Below, piece by piece: positions 7,662-30,604 of a stretch of 64,000 bases of DNA. Source of the DNA: Ornithinibacillus bavariensis (lineage in GTDB: Bacteria > Bacillota > Bacilli > Bacillales > Amphibacillaceae). Position 1 is the stretch's first letter. Each line of letters opens with the position of its first letter. Location: NCBI RefSeq assembly GCF_018333235.1, contig NZ_BORP01000006.1, positions 124,001-188,000 on the forward strand. The letters run 5' to 3'. The notes beneath the pieces are model-generated. The model was not told the origin of the DNA and made no database searches. It saw only the letters and a program-made list of their open reading frames with translations. The position numbers were made by a program, and so were the translations under genes.

Positions 7662-7667
7662 CTCTGC

Positions 7668-9837: not shown

Positions 9838-10170
9838 TTAAAGATGAAGCGTTTTTAGTACTAAAATTAGGAGAAAAAAACCTCCAAAGACAATATAGTG
9901 CTGCCAATGATTTTTGTTGTAGATGATTCTCCCATTGATATATCGCGAAATGAGAATCAAAACAATAATAAAGAGATAAAAAATCATGGATATTGTCACA
10001 CCAACTATCTCTAGCAATGCAAAGCAAAGAAACAATGCGTGTACTGCAATGTAGAAATATAACACCTTGATTTGACTAGAAGAAAGAGATTCATGGTTTT
10101 TATAAAGCATCATAAAAGCTGCAAGTAGCATCATGATACAGTATAAGATGATAAGAATTATAGAAATCAT
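9838..10170 (-). CDS. Small four-helix membrane protein, unknown function
   Basis: A 110-residue protein with four strongly hydrophobic segments (about 2-22, 38-55, 60-77 and 90-107) joined by short basic loops. I recognise no family. A purine-rich AGGGGG site precedes the ATG. It is divergent from the MerR regulator, whose palindromic operator (10210-10223) lies between the two genes, so the regulator may control both. Confidence 0.6.
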   Translation of the reverse strand: MISIILIILYCIMMLLAAFMMLYKNHESLSSSQIKVLYFYIAVHALFLCFALLEIVGVTISMIFYLFIIVLILISRYINGRIIYNKNHWQHYIVFGGFFLLILVLKTLHL

Positions 10171-10209
10171 ATAATTTACCCCCTATCTATTTTTTTCCAC
10201 TATACAATG

Positions 10210-10223
10210 TGGGGTTAACCCCA
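10210..10223. promoter_or_regulatory. Palindromic operator, probable MerR site
   Basis: TGGGGTTAACCCCA is a perfect 14-base palindrome between the divergent membrane-protein and MerR genes, flanked by TACA and TGTA. Placement is typical for a MerR-family autoregulatory operator. Confidence 0.55.
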
Positions 10224-10249
10224 TGTAAACAAGTAAATTAGGTGATGAC

Positions 10250-10627
10250 ATGAAAATTGGACAATTTATAAAGGAAGTTGAAACAACAAAGGATACCGTA
10301 CGTCATTATGAAGCATTACATCTACTTCAGCCCGCATGGGAAAATACACATCGTATTTATGGGCAAAAAGAGGTGGAGGACTTTTTCGTTATTAAGGAAA
10401 TGCAGTCATTTGGTCTATCCTTAACCGACATTCAAGCTTTATTTCATTTAAAACGACAAAATGGTTGTGGAAATCCCACTCTTATCGAGGGTGTCATGAC
10501 AAAGCTTGAAGATATGAGAGAAAAGATAGAGGAAGAAGAGAAACAGATACAGAGGAAAAAGCATCAATTAACAGAGACGATGCAAGCAATACATTTATTA
10601 GCGGGTGATAAAAATGCCAACTTGTAA
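10250..10627 (+). CDS. MerR-family transcriptional regulator
   Basis: A 125-residue regulator. The N-terminal winged helix (MKIGQFIKEVETTKDTVRHYEAL) is the MerR signature, with the second wing in YGQKEVEDF. A long C-terminal dimerisation helix rich in Glu/Lys follows. There is no metal-binding Cys pair at the end, so it is more like a drug- or stress-sensing member. It starts a compact run with the zinc-finger protein (14-base overlap) and the methyltransferase. Confidence 0.85.
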   Translation: MKIGQFIKEVETTKDTVRHYEALHLLQPAWENTHRIYGQKEVEDFFVIKEMQSFGLSLTDIQALFHLKRQNGCGNPTLIEGVMTKLEDMREKIEEEEKQIQRKKHQLTETMQAIHLLAGDKNANL

Positions 10628-10904
10628 AAGCTGTGGAACGGAATGGGCATGGAAACAAACAGTAAAGAAAACATTCTCCAACATGAAGTGTCCACATTGT
10701 GGGGAGAAGCAATATTTAACAGCTAGGTCTAGAAAGAAAAGCAGTGTTGTCGCCTTTTTAGCTCCTTTAACGCTTCTGTTTTCTTTCATAGTTAATTTTT
10801 CATCGATTGTCACTATTATCCTGTTAATCGGATTATCTATCGTATGGTTTGGTTTATCTCCATGTATCGTTGAATTATCCAATGAGGAGGAGCCACTTTG
10901 GTAG
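10614..10904 (+). CDS. CxxC zinc-finger membrane protein (TIGR04104-type)
   Basis: A 96-residue protein of the type known as the cxxc_20_cxxc family. Two CxxC knuckles (CKSC near residue 4, CPHC near residue 25) about 20 residues apart are followed by a basic stretch and two membrane segments. Function is unknown. ATG at 10614 begins MPTCKSC, as in the family; it overlaps the end of merR. The frame can be extended to a GTG at 10605. Confidence 0.75.
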   Translation: MPTCKSCGTEWAWKQTVKKTFSNMKCPHCGEKQYLTARSRKKSSVVAFLAPLTLLFSFIVNFSSIVTIILLIGLSIVWFGLSPCIVELSNEEEPLW

Positions 10905-11638
10905 CAATAGGGACTTCAGGAGGGAACAAAATAAAGGATCAAATCAAACAAACCTTTAACCAACTAGCAAAAGTTTACGAAAAATCGATTGATACAAAGA
11001 GTTTATACAATAGCGAGTATGAAAGACCGGCAATGATGAGTCAGCTACCGGATAGCCTTCATCATAAAAATGTTCTTGATGCGGGATGTGCAGCGGGTTG
11101 GTATACCGAGCAATTGCTTGGACGAGGAGCAAATGTTGTCGCCATGGATATTAGTCCAGAAATGGTACGGACAACAAAAAGAAGAGTTGGCGAAAGTGCA
11201 GAGGTAATCTGTCAGGACTTAGAAACGAAGCTACCATTCGCAGATAATTCCTTTGACTATATTATTTCCTCCTTAACCCTGCATTACATGGAGAATTGGG
11301 ACCATCCATTTCGTGAATTCAAACGGATATTAAAGCCAAATGGAATTCTGCTTTTCTCCGTCCATCATATATTCACCGATTTGAAGCTGCGCCAGGACTA
11401 TCATTATTTTTCTACTGAACAGCTAACAGATGAGTGGAATAAAGAAGGAAAAACATATACTGTTCCGTTTTACCGGAGACCTTTACAAGCTATCATCAAT
11501 AAAACAATACAATATTTTTCTCTTCAAGAGATTATCGAACCCCAGCCTACCATGAACATGAAGGATCAGGCACCAAGGGTATATGAAAATCTCATGAAAA
11601 GTCCACAGTTTTTAATCATTAAATCAGGAAAGCAGTGA
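10898..11638 (+). CDS. Class I SAM-dependent methyltransferase (Methyltransf_11)
   Basis: A 246-residue Rossmann methyltransferase. Motif I is NVLDAGCAAGWYTE, post-I is VVAMDISPEM, motif II covers LPFADNSFDYIISSLTLHY and motif III is KPNGILLFSVHH. The layout is that of UbiE/YcgJ-like enzymes acting on small molecules; the substrate is unknown. A TTG start overlapping the previous stop by seven bases follows AGGAGG at seven bases, so translation is coupled to the zinc-finger gene. Confidence 0.8.
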   Translation: MVAIGTSGGNKIKDQIKQTFNQLAKVYEKSIDTKSLYNSEYERPAMMSQLPDSLHHKNVLDAGCAAGWYTEQLLGRGANVVAMDISPEMVRTTKRRVGESAEVICQDLETKLPFADNSFDYIISSLTLHYMENWDHPFREFKRILKPNGILLFSVHHIFTDLKLRQDYHYFSTEQLTDEWNKEGKTYTVPFYRRPLQAIINKTIQYFSLQEIIEPQPTMNMKDQAPRVYENLMKSPQFLIIKSGKQ

Positions 11639-11642
11639 GAAA

Positions 11643-12179
11643 ATGAGTAAGTTACATATTCGAAAACTAGATAATGAATTAGCGGAACTAATTTCCTTTA
11701 TGACCAATAATACATGGGATTATCATACCGATCCTAAACCAAGGAAAGAGCAAATTGAAAAAGCCTTTCGAAACGGATGGTACCAGGAAGATAGGGAAAC
11801 TTTCTGGGTTGAGCACGATAAGGACAAGATCGGATTAATCATTATTCATGATATAAGTGACACCATTCCCCTATTTGATATTCGTTTAGCAGATAATGCT
11901 AGAGGAAAGGGTTATGGAAAAATTGCAGTCAGCTGGATTGTAGACTACCTATTAAGTTTGCCAGAAAAGAAGATTAGGATTGAGGCATATACGAGAAGTG
12001 ATAATCTAGCAATGAGAAAAACCCTATCTAACTGTGGATTTGTAAAAGAAGGCTATTTAAGACAGGCTTGGGAAAATAACGATGGCAGTGTTTCAGACTC
12101 TGTTCTGTACGGAATGATACGTCATGACTGGGAAAACAAGGCTCAGACACCAATAGAATTAGATAAGTTGCCTTATTGA
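11643..12179 (+). CDS. GNAT N-acetyltransferase
   Basis: A 178-residue GNAT of the RimJ/RimL group. The acetyl-CoA loop is LADNARGKGYGKIAV (R-G-K-G-Y-G), followed by KIRIEAYTRSDNLAMRKTL and a NCGFVKEGYLRQAW block. It starts four bases after the methyltransferase stop, so the two are cotranscribed. The substrate is unknown. Confidence 0.8.
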   Translation: MSKLHIRKLDNELAELISFMTNNTWDYHTDPKPRKEQIEKAFRNGWYQEDRETFWVEHDKDKIGLIIIHDISDTIPLFDIRLADNARGKGYGKIAVSWIVDYLLSLPEKKIRIEAYTRSDNLAMRKTLSNCGFVKEGYLRQAWENNDGSVSDSVLYGMIRHDWENKAQTPIELDKLPY

Positions 12180-12344
12180 GTGGAGGATGCCAGTCACTTC
12201 TTAAAAATAGCCCGAACCTATACCTTCCAAGAAGGTATGGAAGATTGCTATGTTTGATTAAAGAAAGATGAGTACATTGCTAGAGATTAATAAGAATATA
12301 TAAGCTGAAAAACAAAATAGTAAATTACGAACTAGGAGGAACTT

Positions 12345-12884
12345 ATGAATATTAGAAAAGCAGTAATATCGGATGCTAACGGAATTGCAAAGGTTCATGT
12401 GGATAGCTGGAGATCCACGTATAAAAATATTATTTCGGATTCGTTTCTAAATAGTTTATCTTATGAAAGGCGAACCGAATTATGGGAACGAAATACTACC
12501 AGAGAAGGAAATTATGTTTTTGTTGCTGAAAGTGAGAGTGGCGAAATCGTTGGATTTGCTGATTGTTGTAAAAGAGAAAATAATCATATCGAAAACGCAG
12601 GTGACTTAACCTCAATCTACCTACTGGAGAAGTATCAAGGACAAGGGATTGGTAAGCTGTTGTTGAAAGAACTTTTCCTAAAGTTCAAGGAGCTTGGATA
12701 TAATAAAGTATTTGTTGAAGTATTAGAAGATAATAAAACACGGTACTTCTATGAATATTATGGAGCAGCCCTTGTTAGGACAGAACAAATAACGATAGGA
12801 GATGCTGAATTAAATCTACTAATCTATGAATGGGACAATCCTAATAAGGTATTGGAAAGACTACTAGGTGAAGCAAATGATTAA
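12345..12884 (+). CDS. GNAT N-acetyltransferase
   Basis: A 179-residue GNAT. It begins MNIRKAVISDANGIAKVH, has the acetyl-CoA loop YLLEKYQGQGIGKLL and ends with a FYEYYGAALVRTE motif carrying the typical catalytic Tyr. ACTAGGAGG before the ATG fixes the start. A small inverted repeat (12220-12238) lies in the gap before it. The target is unknown. Confidence 0.8.
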   Translation: MNIRKAVISDANGIAKVHVDSWRSTYKNIISDSFLNSLSYERRTELWERNTTREGNYVFVAESESGEIVGFADCCKRENNHIENAGDLTSIYLLEKYQGQGIGKLLLKELFLKFKELGYNKVFVEVLEDNKTRYFYEYYGAALVRTEQITIGDAELNLLIYEWDNPNKVLERLLGEAND

Positions 12885-16957: not shown

Positions 16958-17322
16958 GTAATCTTCCTCTCCATAGTTCTAGCAATATATTTTTGTATAT
17001 CAATGGCATTCGTGCCAAAATATAGAATACTCTTATGTTTATTGTAAATCCTTGTCGAGGAATGTCAACAAAGAATAGTAGTTTTGTAGGGTTTTGGGTT
17101 ATTTTGTAGAGGGATTTTTAGGACTAATGAATCGGAAAATCTGAACTTTATAATATATATTCATCTTGAGAGATTAATAGAATAGAAATTATTAGGCGTT
17201 TCGTCCTGAATGCGAGGACGAGAAGTGTGGGTTTTCATAGGAATAAAGTCTTGTGTAGAGTGGTAAAAATCTATAGGTTTGGTACACTATTGGTAGACAA
17301 TCCTTGAGAGGACGGAATGGAA
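16958..17322. other. Divergent intergenic region between the bactofilin operon and rlmH
   Basis: About 365 bases that must hold promoters for both directions. I see A+T-rich stretches but no hexamer pair good enough to call, and no RNA gene. Confidence 0.5.
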
Positions 17323-17802
17323 ATGAAGATTACAATCGTTTCAGTGGGAAAGCTAAAAGAGAAATACTTAAAACAAGGAATCGATGAGTATATGAAGCGG
17401 CTATCTGCTTATGCCAAGGTAGAGATTGTCGAGGTAGCGGATGAGAAGGCACCGGAGAATATGAGTGATGCGGAAATGATAGCGATAAAGCGAAAGGAGG
17501 GCGAACGAATTCTATCGCATATTGGGCAGGATACGTATGTCATTACATTAGAGATAGGCGGAAAAATGCTTAGCTCGGAACAGCTTGCAGATAAGATGGA
17601 TGAGCTTGCAACGTATGGGAAGAGTAAGCTGGCATTTGTGATTGGTGGATCACTTGGGATGAGTGAAGAAGTGCAGAAGCGGAGTGACTTTGCCCTGTCG
17701 TTTTCTAAGTTGACGTTTCCTCATCAGTTGATGCGGTTGATTCTTCTTGAACAGGTTTATCGGGGGTTTCGGATTGTTAGGGGGGAGCCTTATCATAAGT
17801 AG
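17323..17802 (+). CDS. rlmH: 23S rRNA pseudouridine-1915 N3-methyltransferase RlmH
   Basis: SPOUT-class methyltransferase that methylates pseudouridine 1915 in helix 69 of 23S rRNA. Conserved blocks include [19 protein letters not shown] at the start, [14 protein letters not shown], the SAM-knot loop [33 protein letters not shown] and the terminal RGEPYHK. Starting at the second ATG (17323) gives 159 residues, the family length; ATG at 17317 is also possible. This is the orthologue of staphylococcal orfX, and its last codons overlap the SCC attachment core. Here the same core is repeated 5 kb downstream. The stop TAG is formed at the repeat boundary. Confidence 0.95.
17782..17800. repeat. Attachment-site repeat, left copy (3' end of rlmH)
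   Basis: GGGGAGCCTTATCATAAGT, identical to 22791-22809. It encodes the C-terminal GEPYHK of RlmH and contains the TTATCATAA core seen at SCC attachment sites in staphylococci. Confidence 0.85.
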
Positions 17803-18041
17803 GTAATGATTTTATTTAAAATATAAACCCTTTATGATGAAAGGGGTAGGTTTTCTAAATCGTATACAATATTTTTTAATAAATGAAGGAATCCAATTAC
17901 TCGATTCATCTTCAGGTAGATGTGCAATGAAGGAAAATTGAATGTGCTTTTCTTTTTAGCTTCTATCTTATCAATAGACGCTGCAAGTAAGTGTCTGAAT
18001 TCCAGAGGCCCTAAGTATTCTATTAAGTCTAGGAATTCTAG

Positions 18042-18242
18042 AAGCTGTTGGCGAATGAAATCTGGGGTCACAGGTTTTATGGATGGAAACGCAATACACC
18101 TACTGTTGAGAGAGTATGGAGAATAGCAATGGCTTTGGATATGCCCTTGAAGCTATTAATTACTAGATTGAAGTTCAAAGAGGAAGGAGGTAATATGAGT
18201 AAAGAGGGTAGTAAAAAGCAATTTATTCAAAGTTTATACTAA
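18042..18242 (+). pseudogene. XRE-type regulator remnant
   Basis: The frame encodes KLLANEIWGHRFYGWKRNTP then TVERVWRIAMALDMPLKLLI, the second half of a Cro/CI helix-turn-helix (operator helix, then the R-N-T-P-T and A-x-A-L-D-x-P-L helix). The first half is missing and the recognition helix seems deleted. It sits just after the attachment repeat and before the retron, so it may be the relic of a retron- or element-linked regulator. Confidence 0.45.
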
Positions 18243-18426
18243 GGTAAGACAATTAAGTGGTTGTATAGTATAGTTTCTTTTGAGGGGAACAGGAAATAAT
18301 TGACTTTCGTGGTGAAATCGCCACGGTAATATACTAAGGTATGTCACAGTCTTATTATGCTTAATTTTTTCGCTATTTATATATGTGCTAATAGAGAGGT
18401 AGAATTATACTGCTTTCCCGCTTAAG
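18235..18426 (+). ncRNA. Candidate retron msr-msd region
   Basis: About 190 bases with no coding frame directly upstream of the retron reverse transcriptase, where the retron RNA is expected. It holds a 12-base direct repeat TATACTAAGGTA (18235-18246 and 18330-18341) and a stem CGTGG/CCACG (18308-18312, 18321-18325). I could not define the a1/a2 terminal pairing or the branching G, so position is the main evidence. Confidence 0.3.
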
Positions 18427-20204
18427 GTGGTTATTAGTAATAAAAAAAGTATGAATCCTAGTCTACTTACAGATAAAAACACCATTATAGATAAATTTAA
18501 GTCCTTGAAAGATTTTGAGGACATAGCGAATATGCTAGAGGTGCCCACCAAAGAACTATGGAACATATTGGTGGATTCAAATAAACAAAATTACAGCACA
18601 TTTGTAATTTAAAAAAGATGGAAATGATAGAACAATTTACTCACCTAAAGAGAATCTATCTATCATCCAGAAGAAATTTTCAATGATTTTGACTCTTGAT
18701 TACACTAACCACCCGAATTCACATGGCTTTATTGTAGGACGAAGTATAAAAACAAACGCATCAAAACATGTTCAGCGAAACTATATTTTGAATTTCGACC
18801 TAGAAAATTACTTTGAAAATATAAATTTTGGACGAGTTAGGTCAATGTTTACTTATTATTTTGGTTTCAATAATACTGTTTCTTCAACTCTTGCAAATAC
18901 ATGTTGCCACTATGAAGGATTTTTACCCCAAGGAGCATCAACCTCACCCATAATATCCAACATCATTTCATATAAAATGGATAGAGAGCTATCCAAACTG
19001 GCAGCAAAGAATAACTGTATATATACCAGATATGCAGATGATATTACTCTTTCTACGAAAAGCGAATTTTTACAGAAAAGAATAGCACTTATAAAAGACA
19101 ATTCCGTTAGCCTATCGAAGGAAATTAATAACATAATTAAGAAAAATGGCTTTTTAATTAATGATAGTAAGACTAGATTAAGTAGTAAATATGAACGACA
19201 AATAGTTACTGGGATTACAGTAAATAAAAAATTAAACGTGAATAGAAGATACATTCGTAGAGTCAGATCAATTTTGCATTGCATAGAGAAAAATATAGAT
19301 GATATTGAAATTGCAAAATCTATATTTAAAGAAAAATACAAGTTTCGTTAACAAAAAAATAATAGTGTTCCTGATATGTTTGATGTATTAAGAGGAATGA
19401 TCTCATACATTGGACAAATAAAGGGAAAAGAAGACGATGTATTTTTGAAGTTCGCTAAGCGATGCAACGAGATACTTAAAAATAATGTGAACTTGCAATT
19501 TCCTTTTATAAGATTGCCTATTTTCTAAAAGAAAATTTCAAGAAGATAATACATTTGTAATTGAATCATTATACTATAGTTTTTCGTTTGATGATGGCGC
19601 TAAAGATGAAATTATTGTTGAACAGGGGACGGGTTTTCTCCTAAAAGGGATTGGATTGGTTACAAATGCACACGTTTTCAAGAGTTATATTGAGATGATA
19701 GATTTTGGGGCTAAGCCTGATACAAGGATAAAAATAAATAGATCTAAGTACTCGACTAAATCATATTATGCAAAATTATTAAGTTACGACACTATTAAAG
19801 ATATAGCTATATTAGACGTAAATGGTATTGATATTAAAGGTCATGGTTTTGATTTCAACAAATCAATAGAAAAAGACCAAAAGATACAATTAATAGGTTA
19901 TCCAGATTACCGGGAAAATATGGATTCTAGTATTAAAGATGGTATTGTTCTGGGTGAAAGGTATACAGATAAATCTCGTATCGGAACAATAGAAAAACGC
20001 TTTGAAATAAGTGCTACTATTTATGGAGGTAATAGTGGAGGCCCAGTTGTAAATGAGATGAATGAAGTAATTGCAATAGCTGTAAGAGGGATAACAAAAC
20101 ATGGTGTGGTTTCTAGTGAAGTAATTCCAATTATAGATGTTATCGAACTAGCGGTGAAAGAAAAGATATATAGTATGGAAAAGGTTGAGGAAATTGAAAT
20201 CTAA
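18427..20204 (+). pseudogene. Retron reverse transcriptase fused to trypsin-like protease, broken
   Basis: Three successive frames read as one protein of about 590 residues. The first (18427-18612) is the RT N-terminus. One extra T near 18610 shifts the frame; the RT continues with the retron hallmarks NASKH (NAxxH, about 18755), catalytic YADD (19031-19042) and VTG (19205-19213). A stop at 19349 interrupts it, but the same frame continues to 19528 with RT thumb-like sequence. A second shift near 19525 leads into a protease whose triad is visible: TNAHV (His), KDIAILDV (Asp), GGNSGGPV (Ser). The protease has no start of its own; the first usable codon lies inside its His motif. Trypsin-fused retron RTs are known as anti-phage systems, but this copy should be inactive unless the lesions are sequencing errors. 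Confidence 0.8.
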
Positions 20205-20272
20205 TAGCGGTCTAATAGTGACCTTTAATACTTTACTTTAGGAAAATTATATACAAGATGGGGGGAAGTTGG

Positions 20273-21085
20273 ATGATAAGTAAGAGAACAATTCTCGTCT
20301 TTTATGATGTTTTAACTACTTTTAGTACATTGAATAGGATACAACAACTTTTTGAATCTGAGCACATATTTGAATCCGAATCACATACATCAAATTTAAG
20401 TGGTCAAAGGAGAACATTAGCAAACTCATATGTATCCACCCTTGACCTTAATAATCCGGGTGACATCAGAAAATTACTAAATATATTTGAACTGTTTTAT
20501 ATAGAAAACTCTGACAATAATTATTTTCTAGTTGATTCTTCGTGGAAGCAATTTCTAATGTTACTAGAAAGAGATGGCTTTATATTTAAAAATGGAAAGA
20601 TACATGAATTAAACGAAACGAATATTCAATTGGATGTTAATGTCTATACGAATAATTATGAAATTCCTCATGTTCAAAAGGACTGGGAAAGAGCATTAAC
20701 TCAGGCAAAAACTGACCCAGAGGATTCAATTACAGCAACAAGATCCATGCTTGAAAGTACTCTAAAGTGGATTCTTGACGATATTGGTTTGGAATATGAA
20801 GAAACAGAAAGTTTAAATCAGCTTTATAAGAAAGTGGCAAACAAACTTAAATTGTCTCCAGATCAACATGGTGAGGATATATTTAAACAAATATTAGGTT
20901 CAATAAATGGTGTAATTGGTGGATTAGGCTCTTTAAGAAATGCTTACGGTGACTCACATGGCAAAGGCAAGGTATACTATAAACCAAGTGAACGGCATGC
21001 AAAATTTGCAATCAATTTAAGCGGGACAATGTGCATCTACCTTTTGGAAACCTATTTTTCCTATAAAGAAGTGCCTACAAATTAA
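20273..21085 (+). CDS. Abortive infection family protein (Abi_C domain)
   Basis: About 270 residues. The N-terminal half is not recognised. The C-terminal half (from about residue 140) is the Abi_C region, with ATRSMLESTLKWILDDIGL and GSLRNAYGDSHGKG. RNAYGDSH fits the R-x4-6-H motif of HEPN ribonucleases, which suggests RNA cleavage as the toxic step. ATG at 20273 is used because the GGGGGAAG site lies before it; the in-frame ATG at 20258 is upstream of that site. It is intact and stands between two broken genes within the rlmH-linked insert. Confidence 0.75.
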   Translation: MISKRTILVFYDVLTTFSTLNRIQQLFESEHIFESESHTSNLSGQRRTLANSYVSTLDLNNPGDIRKLLNIFELFYIENSDNNYFLVDSSWKQFLMLLERDGFIFKNGKIHELNETNIQLDVNVYTNNYEIPHVQKDWERALTQAKTDPEDSITATRSMLESTLKWILDDIGLEYEETESLNQLYKKVANKLKLSPDQHGEDIFKQILGSINGVIGGLGSLRNAYGDSHGKGKVYYKPSERHAKFAINLSGTMCIYLLETYFSYKEVPTN

Positions 21086-21163
21086 ATAATATTATTTGTA
21101 ACAACAATTAATACTTCCATTGATATGAGGGATTGGCAAAGTGTAAAGAATTGAATAAAGTTA

Positions 21164-21205
21164 AAAAGGGACAAACTCAGGTTAATCAATAAGGATGTCC
21201 CTTTT
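21164..21205 (+). terminator. Possible terminator after the Abi_C gene
   Basis: AAAAGGGACA (21164-21173) pairs perfectly with TGTCCCTTTT (21196-21205) across a 22-base loop. The T-run is part of the stem, so strength is uncertain. Confidence 0.45.
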
Positions 21206-21226
21206 CGGATAAATCATTGCCTTGAA

Positions 21227-21520
21227 ATGTTTTATAGATTTAACGCGAATGAAGAATCTAAAAAGAAGGCTATAAACATTTTATCTGATATATTGGAACC
21301 TCTTAGAGAAGAGCTAAAGGATTTATTAAATAATGAATACGAAGTAAATAAAAATTCACATGATAAATTAATTTTTGAAGTAGTAAATCAATTTATTATA
21401 CGTCATAATAACCAGAAACAACGAACGGAATATAGTAGAGAAATATGGTATGACTGGATGATGCAGTATTATACCAGTGTAATTACCACATATTATAGAT
21501 TAAAAGAAAAGATGGGTTAA
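21227..21520 (+). CDS. Hypothetical protein, unknown function
   Basis: A 97-residue, strongly charged, helical protein (MFYRFNANEESKKKAINILS...). No membrane segment or known motif is visible. The ribosome binding site is poor, but the frame is followed after 21 bases by the HEPN gene, whose AAGGGGAAG site lies in the gap, so the two look cotranscribed. It may be a small partner of that gene. Confidence 0.5.
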   Translation: MFYRFNANEESKKKAINILSDILEPLREELKDLLNNEYEVNKNSHDKLIFEVVNQFIIRHNNQKQRTEYSREIWYDWMMQYYTSVITTYYRLKEKMG

Positions 21521-21541
21521 ATGATATAAGGGGAAGTTATT

Positions 21542-22724
21542 ATGAAACTGCATTTCGAAGATTGGTTGGAAAAACAAAATATTGATTCTGAATCAATGAG
21601 TTTATTTAGGGAATCTATAGTTTGCTATAAAGCAGGAGCCTATAGGGCGTCATTATTGACCTCTTTTATGGGTTTTTTGTCTGTAATAAGATGGAAAATA
21701 TTAAATTCTTCTAAGCCAGACAACATTCATGAGGGAGATTGGGAAAGGATAGTTTCCAATTTAAGAAATGATGATAGATGGGATACTGAAACATTAGAAT
21801 GTATTAAGAGAACAGATGCAAGAAAAGTAATTTTCTCAATATCAGATGATTTGCGAAGACAAGTTTTTTACTGGAAAGACAGAAGAAATGATTCTGCTCA
21901 TTCAAAAAGAAATAAAATAGACTATGCTCATGTTGAAACTTTATGGTTGTTTATCTCTTCTAATATGGGGAAATTTGCTGTAAATGGGAATATGGATTCG
22001 ATTTTGTTAAAGATCAAAAGGCATTATGATATTGCGTATAATTCTATAGGTAAACCTACTGATCAATTGATAAATGAAATAATGCATAGTATTGAAGAAA
22101 GTGAAATTGAAACATTTTATAGTAGGTTACACCAGTTATTTTTAGAAGAAGATAGGCATTATTGCGATGACTTTATCATTCTTATTAGCAGTGATGATGA
22201 ATCAACATTTCTACACTTTTGGAATGATCTAATACATATTAATGAAACATGGGAACGAACGGAATTTATGGTATGAGAGAATACCAAGTTATATAAATTG
22301 TTATTCGGTCTTATCAGAACTTTTTCGACATAATCTTATTGAAAAATCAGAGCATAGGGAAGTTTTCCAAAGAGTGATTAATCCCAAGTATGATAATCTT
22401 ACAGAAGAGGATATTAGATTCTTTGATCAATTTGGATATTCAGAGGTCTTTGAAAACGGTGTTTTTACTGAACGTCTAATTGATGACTTTAGATGGGGAA
22501 ACGCTAACTATAGGTTAGTAATAACATATATTAAAGTAAAAGGACTTAACGAATTAATAGTTTCGACCTTAAACAGTGTTTTTGATAAATACAAGTATTT
22601 CCCTAATACAGCACAAGTTAATCTTCATAGTTTTTTTAATGAAAATCAGGAATACAAAGATAAGTATATCGAGATTTGCACAGAAATAGGTATTACACCT
22701 ACAGACTTATTAATAAGTGATTAG
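21542..22724 (+). pseudogene. HEPN-domain protein split by a frameshift
   Basis: The first frame (21542-22276, 244 residues) has a helical domain SIVCYKAGAYRASLLTSFMG and the catalytic-type motif RRNDSAHSK (R-x4-H), typical of HEPN ribonucleases. It stops after HINETWERTEFMV. A second frame (22242-22724, 160 residues) overlaps it, has no ribosome binding site and continues WYERIPSYINCYSVLSELF as if one protein of about 390 residues had shifted near 22270. Either a recent frameshift or two overlapping genes; I favour the former. A terminator follows at 22736. Confidence 0.6.
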
Positions 22725-22735
22725 AAATAATAATT

Positions 22736-22766
22736 AAGGCGAGATAAATATTCTCGCCTTCTTTTA
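22736..22766 (+). terminator. Terminator after the HEPN gene
   Basis: AAGGCGAG (22736-22743) pairs with CTCGCCTT (22753-22760), followed by CTTTT. It lies about 25 bases before the right attachment repeat. Confidence 0.8.
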
Positions 22767-22790
22767 TAGATGCTACCTTTAAATTGATAC

Positions 22791-22809
22791 GGGGAGCCTT
22801 ATCATAAGT
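22791..22809. repeat. Attachment-site repeat, right copy
   Basis: GGGGAGCCTTATCATAAGT, identical to 17782-17800 at the end of rlmH. Here it is not part of a gene. It is followed by GAGTGCGGTT. Confidence 0.85.
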
Positions 22810-22945
22810 GAGTGCGGTTACTCTAAAACAACGTTTTTAGAAGTGAATGAATATTTGCATACTTTAGTAATGACAGTATAATAATAGAGAAAGTTAGGTT
22901 TACAATTTCTATGTATAAAGGCTTTGAGGCCTGTAAAAGAGAAGG

Positions 22946-23501
22946 GTGGTTTATAAATTGGCTTTAGCAAATGTGTATACGCAGGTTCATGGACAAGCTC
23001 CAAGTAAGTTTACTCAGCAGCATCTAAAGGATATTGGGTTTGCCTCTACCAATTATAGGGCATTTATCCCAATCTTTAAGGCATTGGGATTTCTCTCTTC
23101 TGAAGGCGCTCCAACTTCAAGATACCATGAATGGATGCCCCACAATCAAGGAGGGAAATGGGTGAGACTATAAAAGAAGCATAATCTTACCTATTTTAAT
23201 TAAGGAAAGTTTAAAAGCGCAAATAAATATCTTTGAGAGAAGTGCAGAACTTATGTGTAAAACATTTTTTGCTTTGTTGGATATAGCTGATATTAACCAT
23301 GAACAAGATAGATCGAAAGAAATCCGGAATGTGACAATAACAACTGAAATAGCTCCTAAAGATAGAGAAGAAAAGAAAGAAAGTTTTAAGGCTGTGTCTC
23401 CAAGTTTGCAATATAATATACAAATTCATTTACCAGCTCCTAAGGACATTGAAGTTTATAATGCTATATTTAAATCAATAAAGGAGCATCTCATTGGATA
23501 A
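22946..23501 (+). pseudogene. DUF5343-family protein, broken
   Basis: The first piece (22946-23173) reads LALANVYTQVHGQAPSKFTQ and continues to RAFIPIFKALGFLSSEGAPT, the conserved N-terminus of DUF5343. The last piece (about 23195-23501) reads MCKTFFALLDIADINHEQ... and ends NIQIHLPAPKDIEVYNAIFK, the conserved C-terminus. Between them the frame is lost around 23165-23200. The two ends are in the right order and close to normal spacing, so this is one gene with internal lesions. DUF5343 genes commonly occur in defence or mobile islands; their molecular function is not established. Confidence 0.65.
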
Positions 23502-24040
23502 TAATCTAAAGGCTTTGAGGGACTTTTTTTTAGAGGTTTAATATTAGAGTCGGAGGCATCAAAATTTCAAACGGCAGGTATTCAAATAGGGGCAAACTCA
23601 AATTTTACAGAAGAACAACTTCTAATAGAATCACTCTCATCTTTTAGCATAATTAGAAAGAATAATTCTCTTGAAATGGCGAGGCTTTATGCACTGTTAC
23701 ACTGTTTTGAGAATGAGATTAGGTCTTAAAAAAGAGAAACTTTAGAAGAAAAAGAGGAAGTCAATTGGTGGATTAAATTGCCAAATAAGATAAAAGGTTA
23801 TGCAGAAATGCGCCAACGAACAGCCTTAAAGGATTCATGGTTGGAGGGAGAGAAAGAGGACTTACTAGGATTTGTTGATTTTGGAATGCTAACTGAGATA
23901 AGGTTTAAACAAATAATGGATGAGCTTGAAAAGACGAGAAATTTTATTGCACATAATTAGGATGCTCTTACCGAGAGAATTTCAAAGGGTTTAAATGTAT
24001 GTAGCTGATAGGGTAATAGGTTTGTAAACTCCTTTTTACA
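23484..24040 (+). pseudogene. Swt1-like HEPN protein, broken
   Basis: Open frames in three phases read as one protein. The first is FFRGLILESEASKFQTAGIQ through MARLYALLHCFENEIRS, ending in a stop near 23727. The next (about 23728-23960) reads KLPNKIKGYAEMRQRTALKD, DLLGFVDFGMLTEI and KQIMDELEKTRNFIAHN; the last phase reads RMLLPREFQRV. RNFIAH is the R-x4-H motif of HEPN RNases. The order matches Swt1-type C-terminal HEPN proteins encoded next to DUF5343. Stops and a probable deletion after LTEI show that it is inactive. Confidence 0.6.
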
Positions 24041-24354
24041 ACTTGAATTTGGAATACTAAATTAGTAAATGTAGATATAAACCTCATTTAATAATATCAT
24101 TGCAAGCTGCATCAATAATAGATGAGCGTTTTTTACCAAGTAAATTCTTAAACATAAAATATTATTGATTTAGATTATTTATAAATATTATTTAAGGTTG
24201 TAAAAGAAGCTAAGGACCATACTTAGATGATCCAAACAGCGGAAGAATTCTTTTAGTCCAAAAAGATTAAATTAATTTAATTCTCTTTGGATTTATAAAT
24301 ATGATTCCAATAGGTAATGATAGATTTCTAAAATAATATTCATTTAAGGGGGAT
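24041..24354. other. Intergenic, with a near-palindrome
   Basis: No coding frame of note. Positions 24257-24291 form a 35-base near-perfect palindrome (TCCAAA...TTTGGA arms around TTAAATTAATTTAA), followed by TTTATAAAT; it may be a terminator for decayed genes upstream or an operator of the AIPR gene. Confidence 0.4.
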
Positions 24355-26181
24355 ATGATATTGATAACATTAACTGATGAAATAAAAGATATCGAAACTG
24401 AAATTGAAACGATAAAAAAAATTGGTAAAAAATTTTCTGAAACAATAACGAGTGATCAAGCGTTCAATATCCTTGTTTTACAATATTATTGTTTTAAGGA
24501 AAATGAACTAGAAAATATTTGGTTTGATATAAAGAGTTGCATTACTGATGGTAGCGATGATGGGGGCCTTGATTTTGTTTATTTTGATGAAGAAGAGTAT
24601 AAAGTAATAATTGGGCAAAATAAATATTCTCCAAATGTAAGTGCCCAGGAATGTCTATCAGAGATTCATAAAATTGTAAATACCATTGAAGATTTTTATA
24701 AAGGCCATACTGGAAAATATAATAAAAAAGTAAAAGAAGCCTTTCAAAATGCAATTGATAGACTTACAGATGAAACAGAAGGTAACATTGAGATTGTTTT
24801 CTCATCATTAAGCAAGTTTGATTTTGAAGGAACAAAAGAGCGAATAGGGGATTTGGAAAATAAGGTATCACAAATTGCGTTTTATGCACCGAATGATATA
24901 AACGACCTAATAGAAAAAGTTAAATCGAGTTTCGAAGTAGTTCCTGAAGATACAATTAAAATTGACAAAGCAAAAAACTGGTTAGAATACGATACTGACA
25001 AGCAAAAAGGAATGTTTATTAATGTTAGCTCACAGTCAATTTCAAGGTTATATAATAAATATAACAACAAAGGGTTATTTAATTTAAATATAAGAAGGTA
25101 TATTAAAAGTAAGAGTGTAGACGATGGTATAAATCATACTTTAAATAAAAACAGAGATGAGTTTTGGTTTTTAAATAATGGGCTTACGATAGCCTGTAAT
25201 GACTTTTCAACAGATGGAGACACGATTAGATTATATAATTTCTCAATTGTTAATGGTGGTCAAACGACAACATTAATTGGATCTTATAAGGGTAATAATA
25301 AAGAAGAGTTTTATATCCCTTGTAAAATTGTTGCGAGTAAAGAAAAAATGCGACCAGAACATTCCATGATGTTTTTCAATAAAATTGCTGAAGCTACCAA
25401 CTCACAGAAGCCAATTCAACCAAAGGATTTGAAGTCAAATGCACCAGAGATGATAAATTTACAAAGGTTATTAAAGCGACATGGTATTGGTCTGGAGATT
25501 AAGAGAGGAGAACAATTACCGAAAAACTTAAATATAAAAATCAAAAACGATATTTTTGCTCAATTAGTTTATTCATTTGTAAATCAAAAACCAGGAACTG
25601 CTAGATCAAATAAGAAATCGTTATTTAATAATAACAAGTCATATAAACAAGTATTTAGAAAAAACTACGAGCAAACTGAAAAATGGAAATTTATTATAGA
25701 CTTAATTGATTTAAATGAGCGGTTTGAAGCATTATCAAAAGAATATAAAAAGAAGGGAACAGAAGTATTCAATTCAGAAGAAGCAAATGTCTTTAGTAAT
25801 GGAAAGTATATTTTATTTGGTTTGTTTGGGGTCATCTATAGAATAATCAATGATGATATTAAGTTAGCAGAATTAAGAGAGGATACTAGTATTATAGATA
25901 GTGATGATTTTATCTATGATGGTTTTATTTCGAATTATACCAAAGATGATATTAATAATAAATTAGATTCATTGATAAAGTTTTTAGTCGGAATACTATC
26001 GACTTCATACTCAAATCAATATGAAGCTGGAAAAGTGACAAGTGTTAGTAATTTTTTTAAAACTGACAAAAAGTACTTGGAAGACGTAGTAAAAACTTTT
26101 GCTTCTATGTTGAATCGAGAGTTTTACTTAAAAGAATTAATGGAGTATGGTGAAATATTTAAAAGAAGTAAAAATAATTAA
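24355..26181 (+). CDS. AIPR-family abortive phage resistance protein
   Basis: A 608-residue protein of the AIPR family. The diagnostic middle part is visible: DEFWFLNNGLTIACNDF, then FSIVNGGQTTTLIGSY and later FNKIAEATNSQKPIQPKDLK. The N-terminal 100 residues look like a PD-(D/E)xK nuclease: acidic GGLDFVYF (Asp about 73) followed by IIGQNKY (Gln 88, Lys 90). A cleavage activity is therefore plausible but unproven. AAGGGGG is closer to optimal for a TTG at 24361 than for the ATG at 24355. It is monocistronic, intact and flanked by decayed genes. Confidence 0.8.
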   Translation: MILITLTDEIKDIETEIETIKKIGKKFSETITSDQAFNILVLQYYCFKENELENIWFDIKSCITDGSDDGGLDFVYFDEEEYKVIIGQNKYSPNVSAQECLSEIHKIVNTIEDFYKGHTGKYNKKVKEAFQNAIDRLTDETEGNIEIVFSSLSKFDFEGTKERIGDLENKVSQIAFYAPNDINDLIEKVKSSFEVVPEDTIKIDKAKNWLEYDTDKQKGMFINVSSQSISRLYNKYNNKGLFNLNIRRYIKSKSVDDGINHTLNKNRDEFWFLNNGLTIACNDFSTDGDTIRLYNFSIVNGGQTTTLIGSYKGNNKEEFYIPCKIVASKEKMRPEHSMMFFNKIAEATNSQKPIQPKDLKSNAPEMINLQRLLKRHGIGLEIKRGEQLPKNLNIKIKNDIFAQLVYSFVNQKPGTARSNKKSLFNNNKSYKQVFRKNYEQTEKWKFIIDLIDLNERFEALSKEYKKKGTEVFNSEEANVFSNGKYILFGLFGVIYRIINDDIKLAELREDTSIIDSDDFIYDGFISNYTKDDINNKLDSLIKFLVGILSTSYSNQYEAGKVTSVSNFFKTDKKYLEDVVKTFASMLNREFYLKELMEYGEIFKRSKNN

Positions 26182-26268
26182 AGACATATTCTGTAGTATA
26201 GTAAAAATTTTGGTGAAAAATTTAAGTATTACCTAGTCTTATCTTTTAAGATTTTATTCCAATTGAAT

Positions 26269-26335
26269 AAGAGGCTGGGACGATTTTCGGAGCCATATTT
26301 TCAATTATTTTTGGGTAGTTATGTCCCACCCTCTT
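26269..26335. repeat. Inverted repeat AAGAGGCTGGGAC
   Basis: AAGAGGCTGGGAC at 26269-26281 pairs with GTCCCACCCTCTT at 26323-26335 (one mismatch), with a 41-base loop. GAGGCTGGGAC-type repeats are common in Firmicutes as terminators or insertion-sequence ends. It abuts the resolvase remnant. Confidence 0.6.
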
Positions 26336-26339
26336 TGCG

Positions 26340-26605
26340 TTCTTTAAATCATAAGTGACTTTACGTAAATCTAAAATATTTCTAGCTAGTCTACCTACTT
26401 TATATACTAAAAAAATTTATCACCTAATCGAAGGTAATCCAATGCTTTTGCTAATTCCTGACGGTCGGATTTTGCACCACTTTGTTTTTACTGGAAGAAT
26501 CTATGATAACCGTATTTCTGTAGCTGCTCTACTTGAAGTTCTAAATCTTGTGCAGGTAGTAACTCCTGCATATTCTAATATTGCCATGATGTATCATTCT
26601 CCTGG
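26340..26605 (-). pseudogene. Serine resolvase N-terminal remnant
   Basis: Read on the minus strand, separate frames give MAILEYAGVTT, then QDLELQVEQLQKYGYHRFFQ, a stop, KQSGAKSDRQELAKALDYLR, and after a shift LVYKVGRLARNILDLRKVTY. This matches the resolvase/invertase catalytic domain (YARVSTxDQxLxxQ, SGAKxxRPEL, LDRLARN). The expected R-V-S-T catalytic segment is already lost. It ends at the inverted repeat and has no DNA-binding domain left. Confidence 0.7.
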
Positions 26606-26834
26606 TTGTCTATAAGTCTTATACCTTCTGTGTGTTTATTTATAGACTAACTTCAAGACAATAACAAAATAGTTTTTTTGTGTCTAAAAGTTGAAGTTTT
26701 ATACTCCATTAAATGTATGTTAAAACACTTTAAAAGTTTGATGAAAATTCAACAATCGAGTATATGAACCTATTTAAAAATTTGTACTATAATGTTCACT
26801 TTTAATAATTTAATGTAAATAAGGGGAAATAATA

Positions 26835-27725
26835 ATGATCAAGATAACTTTATGGGAGAACGCATATGATTCAATAGAGCATGGGTTGGAACATTTAGAA
26901 ATAGCTATTAATAATGATAATGCTTACGATTATAGGAGAGCTGTTTTAGACTTTTGTCATGCAGCGGAGTTGTTGTTAAAAGAGATATTATTCAGAATAG
27001 ATCCTATTTACGCGTTCGATAAGAACGATTTGTTTAAGAAATGTTTAGATCCATTGCATCCGACAATTGAAGAACTTTATTCCTGTAAGTCTTTGGAGGT
27101 GCATCCATTATGTAATGCTGTAGAAAAATATGCACCTGAATTGAAGAATGAGTATAATGCGAATCTAAATGTTTTTTCTAAAGAAGCATCTAAATTAAGA
27201 AATAAGATTCAACACTTTTGTTATGAGTCAACAGTATCGGAAATAAGAGGTACTTTATTGAAGTTAAGCTATCAGTTGTTATGTCCAGTTTTTTCTTACC
27301 TAGATACCGAGATGAAATACGACCCATTAGAGGAAAGATTGTATGAGGCATTCTCAGTGGAAAATGTATTGAGATATTATAAAGAGATATATCACCAAGA
27401 GAATAGAGATTATTCTATAGGTTGTTGTTATGCCTGTGGTTCATATGGCTTAATAATGACGTATGAAGAAGGTTATCCTACTTCTTGTGAATGTCTAGCA
27501 TGTAAGTTTACGCAGAAAGATATTCAAGTGGAAGATTATAGAATATGTCCTGATTGTGGTGGTAACTCACTTATATATTCTGAAGAACTTGATGGAGGGA
27601 TATGTCTTTGGTATAAATGTGCAAACCATAAAGATGGCGGTATAGTTATTTCCATGGAAATGTGTGATAGTTGTAATGACTATAAAATTGAAAATGTTTG
27701 TAATTGCACTGAATCAGTGGAGTAA
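26835..27725 (+). CDS. HEPN-like protein with C-terminal zinc ribbons
   Basis: A 296-residue protein. The first 170 residues are helical, with a HEPN-type ASKLRNKIQHFCYE segment (R-x4-H). The rest is Cys-rich: CCYACGSYG (about 199), SCECLACKF (about 220), CPDCGGN (about 237), CDSCNDY (about 278) and CNC near the end, giving at least two zinc ribbons. This pairing suggests an RNase-like effector that binds nucleic acid through zinc modules. I do not recognise a named family. A TATAAT box at 26788-26793 lies 42 bases before the start, and AAGGGGAAA precedes the ATG. Intact and alone. Confidence 0.65.
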   Translation: MIKITLWENAYDSIEHGLEHLEIAINNDNAYDYRRAVLDFCHAAELLLKEILFRIDPIYAFDKNDLFKKCLDPLHPTIEELYSCKSLEVHPLCNAVEKYAPELKNEYNANLNVFSKEASKLRNKIQHFCYESTVSEIRGTLLKLSYQLLCPVFSYLDTEMKYDPLEERLYEAFSVENVLRYYKEIYHQENRDYSIGCCYACGSYGLIMTYEEGYPTSCECLACKFTQKDIQVEDYRICPDCGGNSLIYSEELDGGICLWYKCANHKDGGIVISMEMCDSCNDYKIENVCNCTESVE

Positions 27726-28017
27726 CAAATGAAGTGAAAGGATTATACATATCTGAACTCGAATTTTCTTAATGAGAACTAAGTGGATTATCTAAAAAGT
27801 TATAGGTAGTGTCTTTTCAATTGGATTAATGCTTAGTGTGGCAAAGTTAGAATGCTAAAGGGGTTCAATTTAACATATTTTATGTAGTGATATATTTTTA
27901 TTTAACCAAAGAATGTTAGTTTTTTTGAACTAACGTTCTTGTGTTGTTGGAATCAGATTTTATTATGTAAGTTTAATAGATATTGGTTGGTTAAAGTAGA
28001 CTGTAAAGGATTACATA

Positions 28018-28131
28018 AATAATGTACTTAAAAAAGAATTATCTGGTTATAGATTTGTTAATAAAGAGTTAGTAAGAATCACGGCAGACGAAGAAATTAA
28101 AGAAATCGTAGAAGCAATAAGAAAACGTTAG
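28018..28131 (+). pseudogene. AbiJ-like domain remnant
   Basis: A 37-codon open stretch reads LKKELSGYRFVNKELVRITA followed by DEEIKEIVEAIRK and a stop; the frame is closed just upstream. The Y-R-F-V-x-x-x-[LI]-x-x-I-T-x-x-E-E-I pattern is typical of AbiJ N-terminal domains in abortive-infection HEPN proteins. Too short to be functional. Confidence 0.4.
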
Positions 28132-28150
28132 GAGGTGATCTTTCCTAACG
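28121..28150 (-). terminator. Terminator of the methyltransferase-Mrr gene
   Basis: CGTTAGGA (28126-28133) pairs with TCCTAACG (28143-28150); on the minus strand the stem is followed by TTTTCTTATT. Confidence 0.75.
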
Positions 28151-28173
28151 CTTAAGGTAATTGATATTAAATG

Positions 28174-30603
28174 TTAGCCCCTATTAATATCACTAATGTA
28201 ATATTTATTAGGGAAATGTTTGTTTAGCATTGCAAGAAGTTCAGAACCTTTTAATAATTCTACACCTGTCAATTTACCTTCCTGTAATCCAGCTTGTGTA
28301 TAATCAGAAGTAGTAATACAAATACCCTGAGTAAATCCGTCGGTCATTTTAACGCTGTTTAGACGTTGGATTGGTTCACTTCCAACATTACCAATCCATC
28401 TTTTCACTTGGAAAATAAACCTTTCTTGCTTGTTAGTACGTATATTCAATTTCGTTGCAACCAGATCTACTCCTCGGTCACCAGCTCCACCCATTCGAGC
28501 AACATTTTGATACCCTTCCTTAATTAGCAACTGTTTTATTAACTCTTCCAAACCGTAAGGGTCAATTGTCCTTAGATCAATCAGGTTTTCTCCATATTGA
28601 TTTTTATAGGATTCTTTTCTGATAAAGCCACGGTCTGTTTCTTCACAAAAATTTAAAAGGAGATTGTTTATATCTGCTTCTTTTGATTTTGAGTCAATTA
28701 TTTTCTCAAGTAATCCAGGGTCTCCATTGCAAAGCTTATCACTTATTTCAAAATAGATATCTTCCAAAGTGAAAAAACTGTTTTGTTTTACCAGTAGATT
28801 TTCAATAATGACAGGAATAATATCATAAAGTTTTACAAACAAGGTTTCAGAATCTTCAAGGTCTACATAGAGTTTATCTTCATCAAGGTAAACGTGATGT
28901 TTAAAATCGATCTTAAAATTATCCTTTATTATCCGCTTAACTCTTTCCTGTTGAGGAGAATTTGCGGTAGTACGATTTTTAATAACTTCACTTTCGATAT
29001 CGATTATTAGCTTACTTAAGCTATACGGTGCAGAGCTTTCTTGGATTTTCTTGTAAACAAACCTTTTAATTCTAAACTCTACATTCTTATCACCAATAAA
29101 CCAATATTTCTGGTCTTCAGGTAACTTAGTAAAGATCAAGTACATTTCTTTTGAAAGTGTGCTTTTAAAAGCTGCTTGCTTGCGTAATGTAGGGTCAGAT
29201 ATTGTCTTATCAATACGTGTTATATATTCAAACCCATTTTGTCTAGCTTTTAAAATATACTGAGAAAGCAAGTCGAAATACTTTTTCTGTCCAAGGTTTA
29301 CGGCTAATACTACAAAGCCGTTGGTATTTATGCTACTGCTAAAAGCGCCAAACATTTTGTTAATATCACTTACATGATGATCGTAATCTTTATCTCTCTT
29401 TCTGGTTGGTGCGTTTGAAACAACGATTTCTTTTTCTAGGAGTTCACCTTTTAATGCATATTTAGATTTATCAACGAAGTGATATAGCCAATCACGGTAT
29501 AACTGGTTTCGTTCCAAATAAGGAACTTGGTCGTGGTAGGGGGGATCAGTTAGAATCAAATCCACCTTATTATCCCCTGTGAAAGTTGATGACATAAAAT
29601 CGTTGTAATCAGAATTCACAAGTGTAAAACTGTTTTTTAGCCATTCACCATTTTCTTCAATATATTTTTTGTGAAACTGCTTGAATTTGTTGTACTTTTC
29701 TTCAAATAGATACCAGACATTCATTTCCTGGGCTTGTTCACGCATAACCTGATAAATATACTCAGAGCCAGAACCATATTGCGCAATCCTAGAAAGGGTC
29801 AAGCTAGCAACTAGGAAATGTTGGAGCAAATTCTTTTCGTGGCACTCTGGTAAGGATGAAATTGCTTCTTGTAATTTTAATAATGCTAATTTATTACGGG
29901 TTGTAAAATTAGTATCATATTTGTCAGCGCCAGTTCCTTTTGTAATGTTAATCCTACTATTTTCTATTAGGTTATGGCTTGGAAATTGAGAAACATCACT
30001 TTTTTCTAGGGATTTAATCTTTTGCTCATCAAATGAGTCAAACTGCTTTGTGGTATTTCCACACTCCGGACACTTATGGAGCATTATTATATTTTTTCCA
30101 TCCTTTATATCACGGTGTGCTTTAGGATTGAGATAATTGTCGGTTTCAGGGTCAAAATGAAGTTTCTTAATATAATTCTTTTTATTACAGCAACGGGTTT
30201 CGTAGAGAAAACGTATTTCTTCAAAGCATTGTTCTTTAACTTGATTAAACAACTTCAATAAACGGCCTAAATTTGCTGTTTGATAAAAAGTACTTACTAC
30301 GTCAAATGTATAGTTATCTAGTTCACTTCCATAGAATTTTTTATTACTTTCGCTAGCTGAAATGATATAAGAGCCTGAACCAATAAAAGGATCAAGAACA
30401 ATACCGTCAGAGTCAGTAAGTGTATCCATTATGATTTTTCCTATTTCGGGGGATTTCCGCCCCTTAAAATTAAATTGATTCTTTAAAAGGGTTGGTACAC
30501 TATTTTTTACATCACGAAGTTTCCTTCTTAACATCAAGGTTTTTTCAATTACCTCTGGGTCGGCTTTCGAAGCCATTGATTGGTATGAAATGTGATTCTC
30601 CAT
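28174..30603 (-). CDS. DNA methyltransferase fused to Mrr-type restriction nuclease
   Basis: A protein of 809 residues. The N-terminal half is an amino-methyltransferase with motif I DPFIGSG (71-77), a CxxC knuckle HKCPECGN (about 177) and catalytic DPPY (353-356) within LILTDPPYHDQVPYLERN. A middle region of unknown fold (about 520-680) is followed by an Mrr-like PD-(D/E)xK domain: GDRGVDLVA (Asp 713) and FQVKRW (Gln 732, Lys 734), then ICITTSDYTQAG. Both activities look complete, so one polypeptide could both modify and cut. ATG at 30603 follows GAGGGGG and lies one base after the stop of the regulator, so the two are coupled. Confidence 0.85.
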   Translation of the reverse strand: MENHISYQSMASKADPEVIEKTLMLRRKLRDVKNSVPTLLKNQFNFKGRKSPEIGKIIMDTLTDSDGIVLDPFIGSGSYIISASESNKKFYGSELDNYTFDVVSTFYQTANLGRLLKLFNQVKEQCFEEIRFLYETRCCNKKNYIKKLHFDPETDNYLNPKAHRDIKDGKNIIMLHKCPECGNTTKQFDSFDEQKIKSLEKSDVSQFPSHNLIENSRINITKGTGADKYDTNFTTRNKLALLKLQEAISSLPECHEKNLLQHFLVASLTLSRIAQYGSGSEYIYQVMREQAQEMNVWYLFEEKYNKFKQFHKKYIEENGEWLKNSFTLVNSDYNDFMSSTFTGDNKVDLILTDPPYHDQVPYLERNQLYRDWLYHFVDKSKYALKGELLEKEIVVSNAPTRKRDKDYDHHVSDINKMFGAFSSSINTNGFVVLAVNLGQKKYFDLLSQYILKARQNGFEYITRIDKTISDPTLRKQAAFKSTLSKEMYLIFTKLPEDQKYWFIGDKNVEFRIKRFVYKKIQESSAPYSLSKLIIDIESEVIKNRTTANSPQQERVKRIIKDNFKIDFKHHVYLDEDKLYVDLEDSETLFVKLYDIIPVIIENLLVKQNSFFTLEDIYFEISDKLCNGDPGLLEKIIDSKSKEADINNLLLNFCEETDRGFIRKESYKNQYGENLIDLRTIDPYGLEELIKQLLIKEGYQNVARMGGAGDRGVDLVATKLNIRTNKQERFIFQVKRWIGNVGSEPIQRLNSVKMTDGFTQGICITTSDYTQAGLQEGKLTGVELLKGSELLAMLNKHFPNKYYISDINRG

Positions 30604-30604
30604 G

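Follow-up and report, generated by a model that had tools for sequence, protein, structure and literature searches.

The 3′ end of rlmH in Ornithinibacillus bavariensis carries a block of about 5.0 kb that is very probably a decayed and now non-autonomous cassette, derived from a family of elements whose CcrB-like large serine recombinase inserts them site-specifically into the final codons of rlmH. The block occupies positions 17782-22809 of the 64,000-nucleotide stretch that was analysed (contig NZ_BORP01000006.1, positions 124,001 to 188,000; hereafter the window). The sequence shows two attachment (att) copies, ends typical of the family, a remnant of a recombinase gene, a deletion whose position follows from an alignment with a relative (G031), and a broken retron gene. 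The staphylococcal cassette chromosome (SCC) elements of Staphylococcus, including SCCmec, likewise target rlmH and are recognised by their core, terminal inverted repeats and ccr recombinase. The initial annotation of the window had proposed an SCC-like insertion; its account of the rlmH site and the att cores holds, whereas the lack of a ccr gene between the copies has to be explained in another way than as a feature of design.

An exact repeat at the end of rlmH bounds the block

The open reading frame (ORF) of rlmH (17317-17802, plus strand) ends in the attachment core. The left copy (17782-17800, plus strand) covers the final codons of the gene and reaches one base into its stop codon, and an exact second copy, followed by GAGTGCGGTT, lies on the same strand at 22791-22809. 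A 19-base repeat that ends rlmH and recurs 5.0 kb further on, as first annotated, is thus confirmed at these positions; we call the two copies attL and attR by analogy. Since a TGA follows attR in the same frame, excision would leave the end codon of rlmH unchanged. The second end, by which rlmH islands have been located through the last ~12 bp of the gene (PMC10061031), is here a 19-bp exact match.

The 19-mer occurs exactly twice in the window, without any further site at up to three mismatches; 100 dinucleotide shuffles of the window averaged 0.02 matches. Across the draft genome (3,473,581 bases in 31 contigs, 96.7% complete) the 16-base core GAGCCTTATCATAAGT is found without mismatch at attL and attR only; the next-best site, on a different contig, has two mismatches. 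A repeat scattered in many copies over the genome, which the annotation had named as a counter-indication, was therefore not encountered. A position matrix was built from 26 second copies in relatives, with the window sites excluded. In a scan of the window it gave its top score to attR (33.0 bits) and 22.8 bits to attL, compared with 14.6 for the third-best site and 15.0 for the top of 10 mononucleotide shuffles. Chance origin of the repeat is excluded by the shuffles together with the independent matrix. The repeat extends no further than the att core.

The genome holds one RlmH match, and 59 of the 61 genomes searched were positive. The window RlmH shows 89-91% identity to proteins from Paucisalibacillus and Ornithinibacillus, those from Oceanobacillus following closely; the comparison set possibly lacked the window's own genome. 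Judged by this protein sequence, the host groups with Ornithinibacillus/Paucisalibacillus; it is not a staphylococcal host.

The ends of the block recur in related genomes

For comparison we used 10 other congeners and 159 genomes of the family including the window's own, with one genome per species. Several end types recur just 3′ of rlmH, and three of them were given the labels A, B and C in this analysis. The left end of the block (17801-17890, plus strand) is of type C, which is common to rlmH-inserted elements of other genera. Its pattern CCNTAYCAYAARTAGGTA was found in 11 of the 159 family genomes, the own genome included, against 1 for a reversed-pattern control. At 8 of the 10 other sites it stands directly 3′ of an rlmH-like frame; in the remaining genomes, G023 and G129, it appears to follow the right end of another element. 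The bases after the pattern can be aligned across genera, and window positions 17801-18085 are 77% identical to G082 over 304 columns.

The right end (22765-22790, plus strand), with GCTACCTTTAAATTGATACGG before the core, is an imperfect inverted repeat of the left end. G136, G153 and G082 have comparable right ends, and G094 a less similar one. Judging from these alignments, both ends of the block belong to one family of rlmH-inserted elements, type C. The block shares with SCC elements the insertion at the 3′ end of rlmH and the combination of direct att repeats with inverted-repeat ends, the direct repeats being exact and the inverted ones imperfect but patterned as in the family. The duplicated att cores and the ends that recur in relatives bear out the proposed insertion. 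The right flank beyond the block matched relatives' rlmH flanks over no more than 29 bases, in a comparison set without a conspecific genome.

A deletion through the recombinase gene

Immediately inside attL lies the 3′ remnant of a gene for a CcrB-like large serine recombinase (17803-18083, minus strand). Roughly the gene's final 95-100 codons are left; the frame changes near 17946-17949 and meets a stop a few codons ahead of the core. A tblastn search of the window with the G082 protein (E 1.6e-35) aligned a first stretch of 46 residues at 72% identity (18083-17946) and, from 17949 on, a second stretch of 77 residues at 62% identity. The latter runs in another frame, has a stop inside and crosses the core into the rlmH antisense strand. 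In G082 and G153 an open minus-strand recombinase gene ends at the left att copy, the two being 58.8% identical to each other; G031, a third relative whose type-C element has an open recombinase gene at its left end, was found via DNA similarity rather than by the end pattern. Among the NCBIfam models, CcrB scores best for each of them (314 bits for G082, 297 for G153 and 327 for G031).

The alignment of the window with G031 is collinear with one gap of ~4.75 kb: window 17323-18085 corresponds to G031 101-879, and window 18083-18227 to G031 5633-5780. The junction of this deletion (18083-18085) shows the microhomology ATGGA. The missing segment takes in the recombinase's catalytic part as well as the start of an XRE-like regulator gene, whose 3′ remnant (18084-18242, plus strand) has thus been truncated by the same deletion; positions 18083-18227 share 69% identity with the 3′ portion of the XRE-like ORF 5425-5748 of G031. 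The label XRE was assigned by eye. There is no ccr gene between the att copies because this internal deletion, relative to G031, took the catalytic part. Where the annotation had seen no ccr recombinase, a 3′ remnant of a Ccr-like gene is in fact present, and the deletion accounts for the loss.

No match to a large serine recombinase or to PF07508 was obtained in the own genome, a 31-contig draft, and its one full PF00239 resolvase domain lies in a 224-amino-acid frame on another contig. Given this lack of a recombinase match, the block has probably become stranded, and immobile unless such an enzyme enters the cell.

Gene content of the block and its right flank

The largest cargo gene (18403-20204, plus strand) encodes a reverse transcriptase (RT)-protease, assigned to retron type XI by PADLOC (RT-Protease_XI; RT part 1.2e-93, protease part 1.3e-27). 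Retrons of this type join RT and trypsin-like protease in one open gene; here both domains match, and the gene is broken at least three times, by a frame change near 18608, a stop at 19349-19351 and a frame change near 19512-19525. A scan of 17000-36000 for a non-coding RNA partner of the retron gave no Rfam family at the gathering threshold. The retron gene is followed by an open gene for an AbiJ-like/Abi_C protein of 275 amino acids (20258-21085, plus strand; Pfam Abi_C 2.3e-23, PADLOC AbiJ 1.1e-21). Three further plus-strand ORFs complete the cargo: one of 97 amino acids (21227-21520) without a family match, which has a DNA relative in G168 (281 bases, 74%); one of 244 amino acids (21542-22276), also without a family match, which overlaps the next frame; and one of 160 amino acids (22242-22724) without a convincing family match. 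The last two are possibly one frameshifted gene. A Pol-SSB primase pair next to a helicase was looked for, and no such family was found in the six scanned ORFs between the copies. The cargo had been described as defence-only, which is borne out only in part, since three of the open frames have no convincing family match and the retron is broken.

The whole block is found in none of the 158 other family genomes, so the same 5 kb at an unrelated locus, the other counter-indication named beforehand, did not turn up. Short matches to it occur in 18 of the 158. DNA of the left end and the remnant was matched in G082, G031, G094, G136, G153, G187 and G193, DNA of the AbiJ-like gene in G021, G094, G114, G185 and G188, and DNA of the 97-amino-acid ORF in G168; the remaining matches are ~30-65 bases long. 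Homologues of the cargo on plasmids or phages were considered and rejected for the two ORFs searched: the AbiJ-like protein matched plasmids (191 records) at less than 60% identity throughout, and the 244-amino-acid ORF had no match in phages.

To the right of the block (22810-41000) the variable island continues with genes for an AIPR/AbiU-like protein, a methyltransferase-Mrr fusion, a D12-class methyltransferase and another methyltransferase. Genes at ~36.8-38.2 kb resemble genes that lie less than 20 kb from rlmH in G010, G033 and G009. A third att copy as right edge of a wider defence island was rejected, as the matrix scan gave none above the shuffle range. A serine resolvase relic on the minus strand (26416-26550) contains stops. 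An older Ccr gene to the right of the block was likewise rejected, since this PF00239 fragment is, by eye, the relic of a small resolvase; when 22810-42000 was compared by blastx with ORFs from around rlmH in relatives, none of the recombinase ORFs was matched.

rlmH loci in related bacteria

A PF07508 recombinase lies within ~1.2 kb of rlmH in six of the 10 other congeners (G001, G002, G003, G007, G008 and G009). For the rlmH-adjacent proteins of G001, G003, G007, G009, G029 and G036, CcrB is the best NCBIfam model with 372-403 bits, as compared with 144-157 bits for the best non-Ccr model; the curated CcrB cut-off is 900 bits. A recombinase ORF longer than 500 amino acids stands at the left att copy in 14 of 80 named rlmH loci and a broken or partial one in four (18 in all); at four more a match lies only farther off. 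At 18 of the 80 loci the att core occurs a second time within 10 kb on the strand of rlmH, a count that covers 10 kb only and is biased towards small cassettes. As controls, mononucleotide shuffles over all 80 stretches gave 0.05 copies and the opposite strand 1. The sets with a second copy and with a recombinase at the left att copy overlap in L114 and L120. Because 16 of the 18 second-copy loci have no long recombinase ORF before the first second copy, recombinase-less cassettes are usual among the short ones.

Several of these loci have features of their own. In L042 (G007), three more serine recombinase ORFs stand in tandem (7593-12553) downstream of the rlmH-adjacent one, the first two without an NCBIfam match at 1e-10. 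G030 (G030:C45:61082-66604) has two rlmH copies 5 kb apart, the first of which ends in the altered core GTACATCTTT and adjoins a recombinase gene; this is possibly an element that brings its own rlmH. The same altered core is found in L114 (Gracilibacillus suaedae), with a second att copy ~4.3 kb on. Two att cores ~100 bases apart, each then followed by GATGCGGTTTTTT, lie just 3′ of rlmH in Staphylococcus petrasii (L142) and form a tiny att-bounded segment. This locus shows TGATGCGGTTTTTT after the core, so that the resemblance of GAGTGCGGTT to the sequence behind SCC att sites, noted in the annotation, stands. Short inverted repeats are present at the ends of L120 (Gracilibacillus sp.) and other type-A loci (TTTTTGCCTCT 5′ of the right core in L120, AGAGGCAAAAA 3′ of the left core) and may be recombinase arms.

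Origin of the block

To account for these findings, we propose that an intact ancestor with a full recombinase gene at its left end inserted here and would thereby have duplicated the rlmH core. The ends, the sites and the relatives suggest that a CcrB-like recombinase would have carried out the insertion. An illegitimate deletion between short repeats would then have removed the catalytic part, neighbouring genes and the start of the regulator, and the remainder would have decayed between att sites that stayed good. If the block is of any use at present, this would be owed to genes that are still open, such as the AbiJ-like one.

Several observations weigh against this history. An open recombinase gene stands at the type-C left-end pattern in just two of the 10 other genomes (G082 and G153). 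Four have parts only, as fragments in hidden Markov model searches (G187, G188) or in tblastn (G193, G156); by tblastn, G094 and G136 match over the last residues only, with insignificant E-values, and G023 and G129 show no recombinase match at all. G031 belongs to another genus according to the tool's grouping, and its arrangement may not be ancestral in all details. The cargo of type-C elements varies among genomes, so that the cargo in the window may postdate the deletion. Since the own genome is a draft, a recombinase could sit in a gap, and the collections, with one genome per species, contain no conspecific strain with an empty site.

The block could also be a non-autonomous cassette that is maintained as such, moving in trans by the recombinase of an autonomous relative, with the remnant serving as the left att arm. 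Such a role would agree with att copies and ends that are well kept despite the broken genes between them, with the frequency of att-bounded segments lacking a recombinase (the 16 of 18 loci above) and with the recombinases at rlmH in congeners. We nevertheless consider it unlikely: no recombinase was found in its own genome, the absence of the whole block from the 158 other genomes gives no sign of spread after the deletion, and the broken retron and regulator suggest simple decay. Much less probable still is a repeat that arose as a by-product of homologous recombination or of a duplication of the rlmH end rather than by site-specific insertion. A short direct repeat alone would be compatible with this, but the repeat is limited to the att core, both inner flanks are family-specific ends known in other genera, and the recombinase remnant adjoins the left copy. 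A true staphylococcal SCC element that moved into a non-staphylococcal host is similarly improbable, to the point of being negligible. Although the target gene and position are identical and the recombinase family is nearest to CcrB, the relatives' recombinases reach 297-403 bits as opposed to the curated cut-off of 900, the ends match elements from the host's own bacterial family, and no ccr gene set is present. A decayed cassette of the type-C family is thus the reading that we prefer.

The recombinase reading frame across the attachment core

In the autonomous relatives, of end types A, B and C alike, the recombinase frame reaches the core without a stop and continues through it. We inspected 32 loci, picked for such ends or recombinases, 30 of which have a readable core (not G030 and L114). 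In the recombinase frame the core reads [FL][MV][IV]R[FL] by construction, so the frame upstream of it is the informative part. That frame is open for at least 80 codons, all that were examined, in 19 of the 30 loci and is cut earlier in 11, including the window. The LPL before the core is encoded in types A and B with differences in synonymous codons only.

At 13 named loci with an intact gene, reading on from the core in the inserted state adds 7-83 residues and leads into the rlmH antisense strand, so that the tail is supplied by the host. Reading through the right end, as in a circle, a stop comes after nine residues, counted from the start of the core, in four of five type-C ends (G082, G153, G136 and the window, not G094) and likewise in the type-A right end of L120; in G022 and G023, the two type-B elements that have a second copy, it comes after 13 and 21 residues. 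Because the frame passes through the core and the stops differ between the inserted and circular states, insertion would exchange the C-terminus of the recombinase. That this exchange is a built-in sensor of the inserted versus the excised state, which could favour stable insertion, is a speculative idea to which we give little credence. On this doubtful reading the window block would keep a fossil of the arrangement.

The length of the antisense tail does not differ between loci with an intact recombinase (13) and loci without (65; Mann-Whitney p 0.68; two of the 80 loci, L101 and L114, were dropped as they have no core pattern). On this ground the integrated tail was rejected as a selected feature. 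An AlphaFold model of the L073 recombinase (13 sequences) has a mean pLDDT (predicted local distance difference test) of 68.4, with values below 50 from residue 555 on; the predicted structure neither supports nor excludes a structured C-terminus. Within the open-access library and the terms searched, no listed title or abstract dealt with a serine recombinase gene that reads through its att core.

Relation to known elements

Islands downstream of rlmH in Bacillota genera that carry a large serine recombinase were described as SCC-like in 2023 (PMC10061031). The parts of that paper considered here report degenerate inverted repeats, composites and pseudo-SCC forms, mention restriction genes and treat Pol-SSB primase pairs as a search trait rather than a trait of the whole class. 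SCC-like elements at rlmH outside the staphylococci, of the kind originally annotated here, were thus already in print, and they are common in the genomes studied. The block agrees with what those parts describe in its site 3′ of rlmH, an end matching the rlmH tail, degenerate inverted repeats and a cargo of conflict genes. In contrast, it is small, no Pol-SSB pair was recognised in its ORFs, and it has a remnant in place of an encoded large serine recombinase, which is open in G082, G153 and G031. Measured against the sections considered, the block is a decayed new example of the published rlmH islands; neither the type-C end nor a recombinase gene through the att core is described in these sections.

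With SCC and SCCmec the block has in common the target, the core, the terminal inverted repeats and, to judge from homology, the serine recombinase chemistry. It differs in having a broken 3′ remnant only in place of a ccr gene, in relatives whose homologues score under the curated cut-offs, and in its non-staphylococcal host. It is not an SCC, though working like one, because neither ccr genes nor a staphylococcal host were found. The staphylococcal pseudo-SCC elements and SCC remnants (CIME) too are att-bounded DNA at rlmH without a working recombinase. Compared with these, the block has another host and recombinase lineage, and its deletion can be placed via a relative.

Of the cases that we met in which an element carries its att site within one of its own genes, the nearest is integration-dependent immunity in mycobacteriophages, where, in the parts of the report considered, the site lies within the repressor gene and the switch consists in losing a degradation tag (PMC9934374). 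As in these phages, att lies inside a gene of the element, here the relatives' recombinase, so that integration alters its 3′ end; unlike there, the gene encodes the recombinase and not a repressor, and any functional effect of the exchange is hypothetical.

Discussion

Apart from the overlap of recombinase gene and core, the block itself is ordinary. Its wider meaning is that, throughout the Ornithinibacillus/Oceanobacillus group, cassettes frequently dock at the end of rlmH. The block also illustrates a route by which such a cassette is stranded, namely a single deletion through the recombinase gene beside the attachment site. The overlap of recombinase gene and core in the autonomous relatives, if functional, would give integrases an additional means of distinguishing the inserted from the excised state of the DNA.

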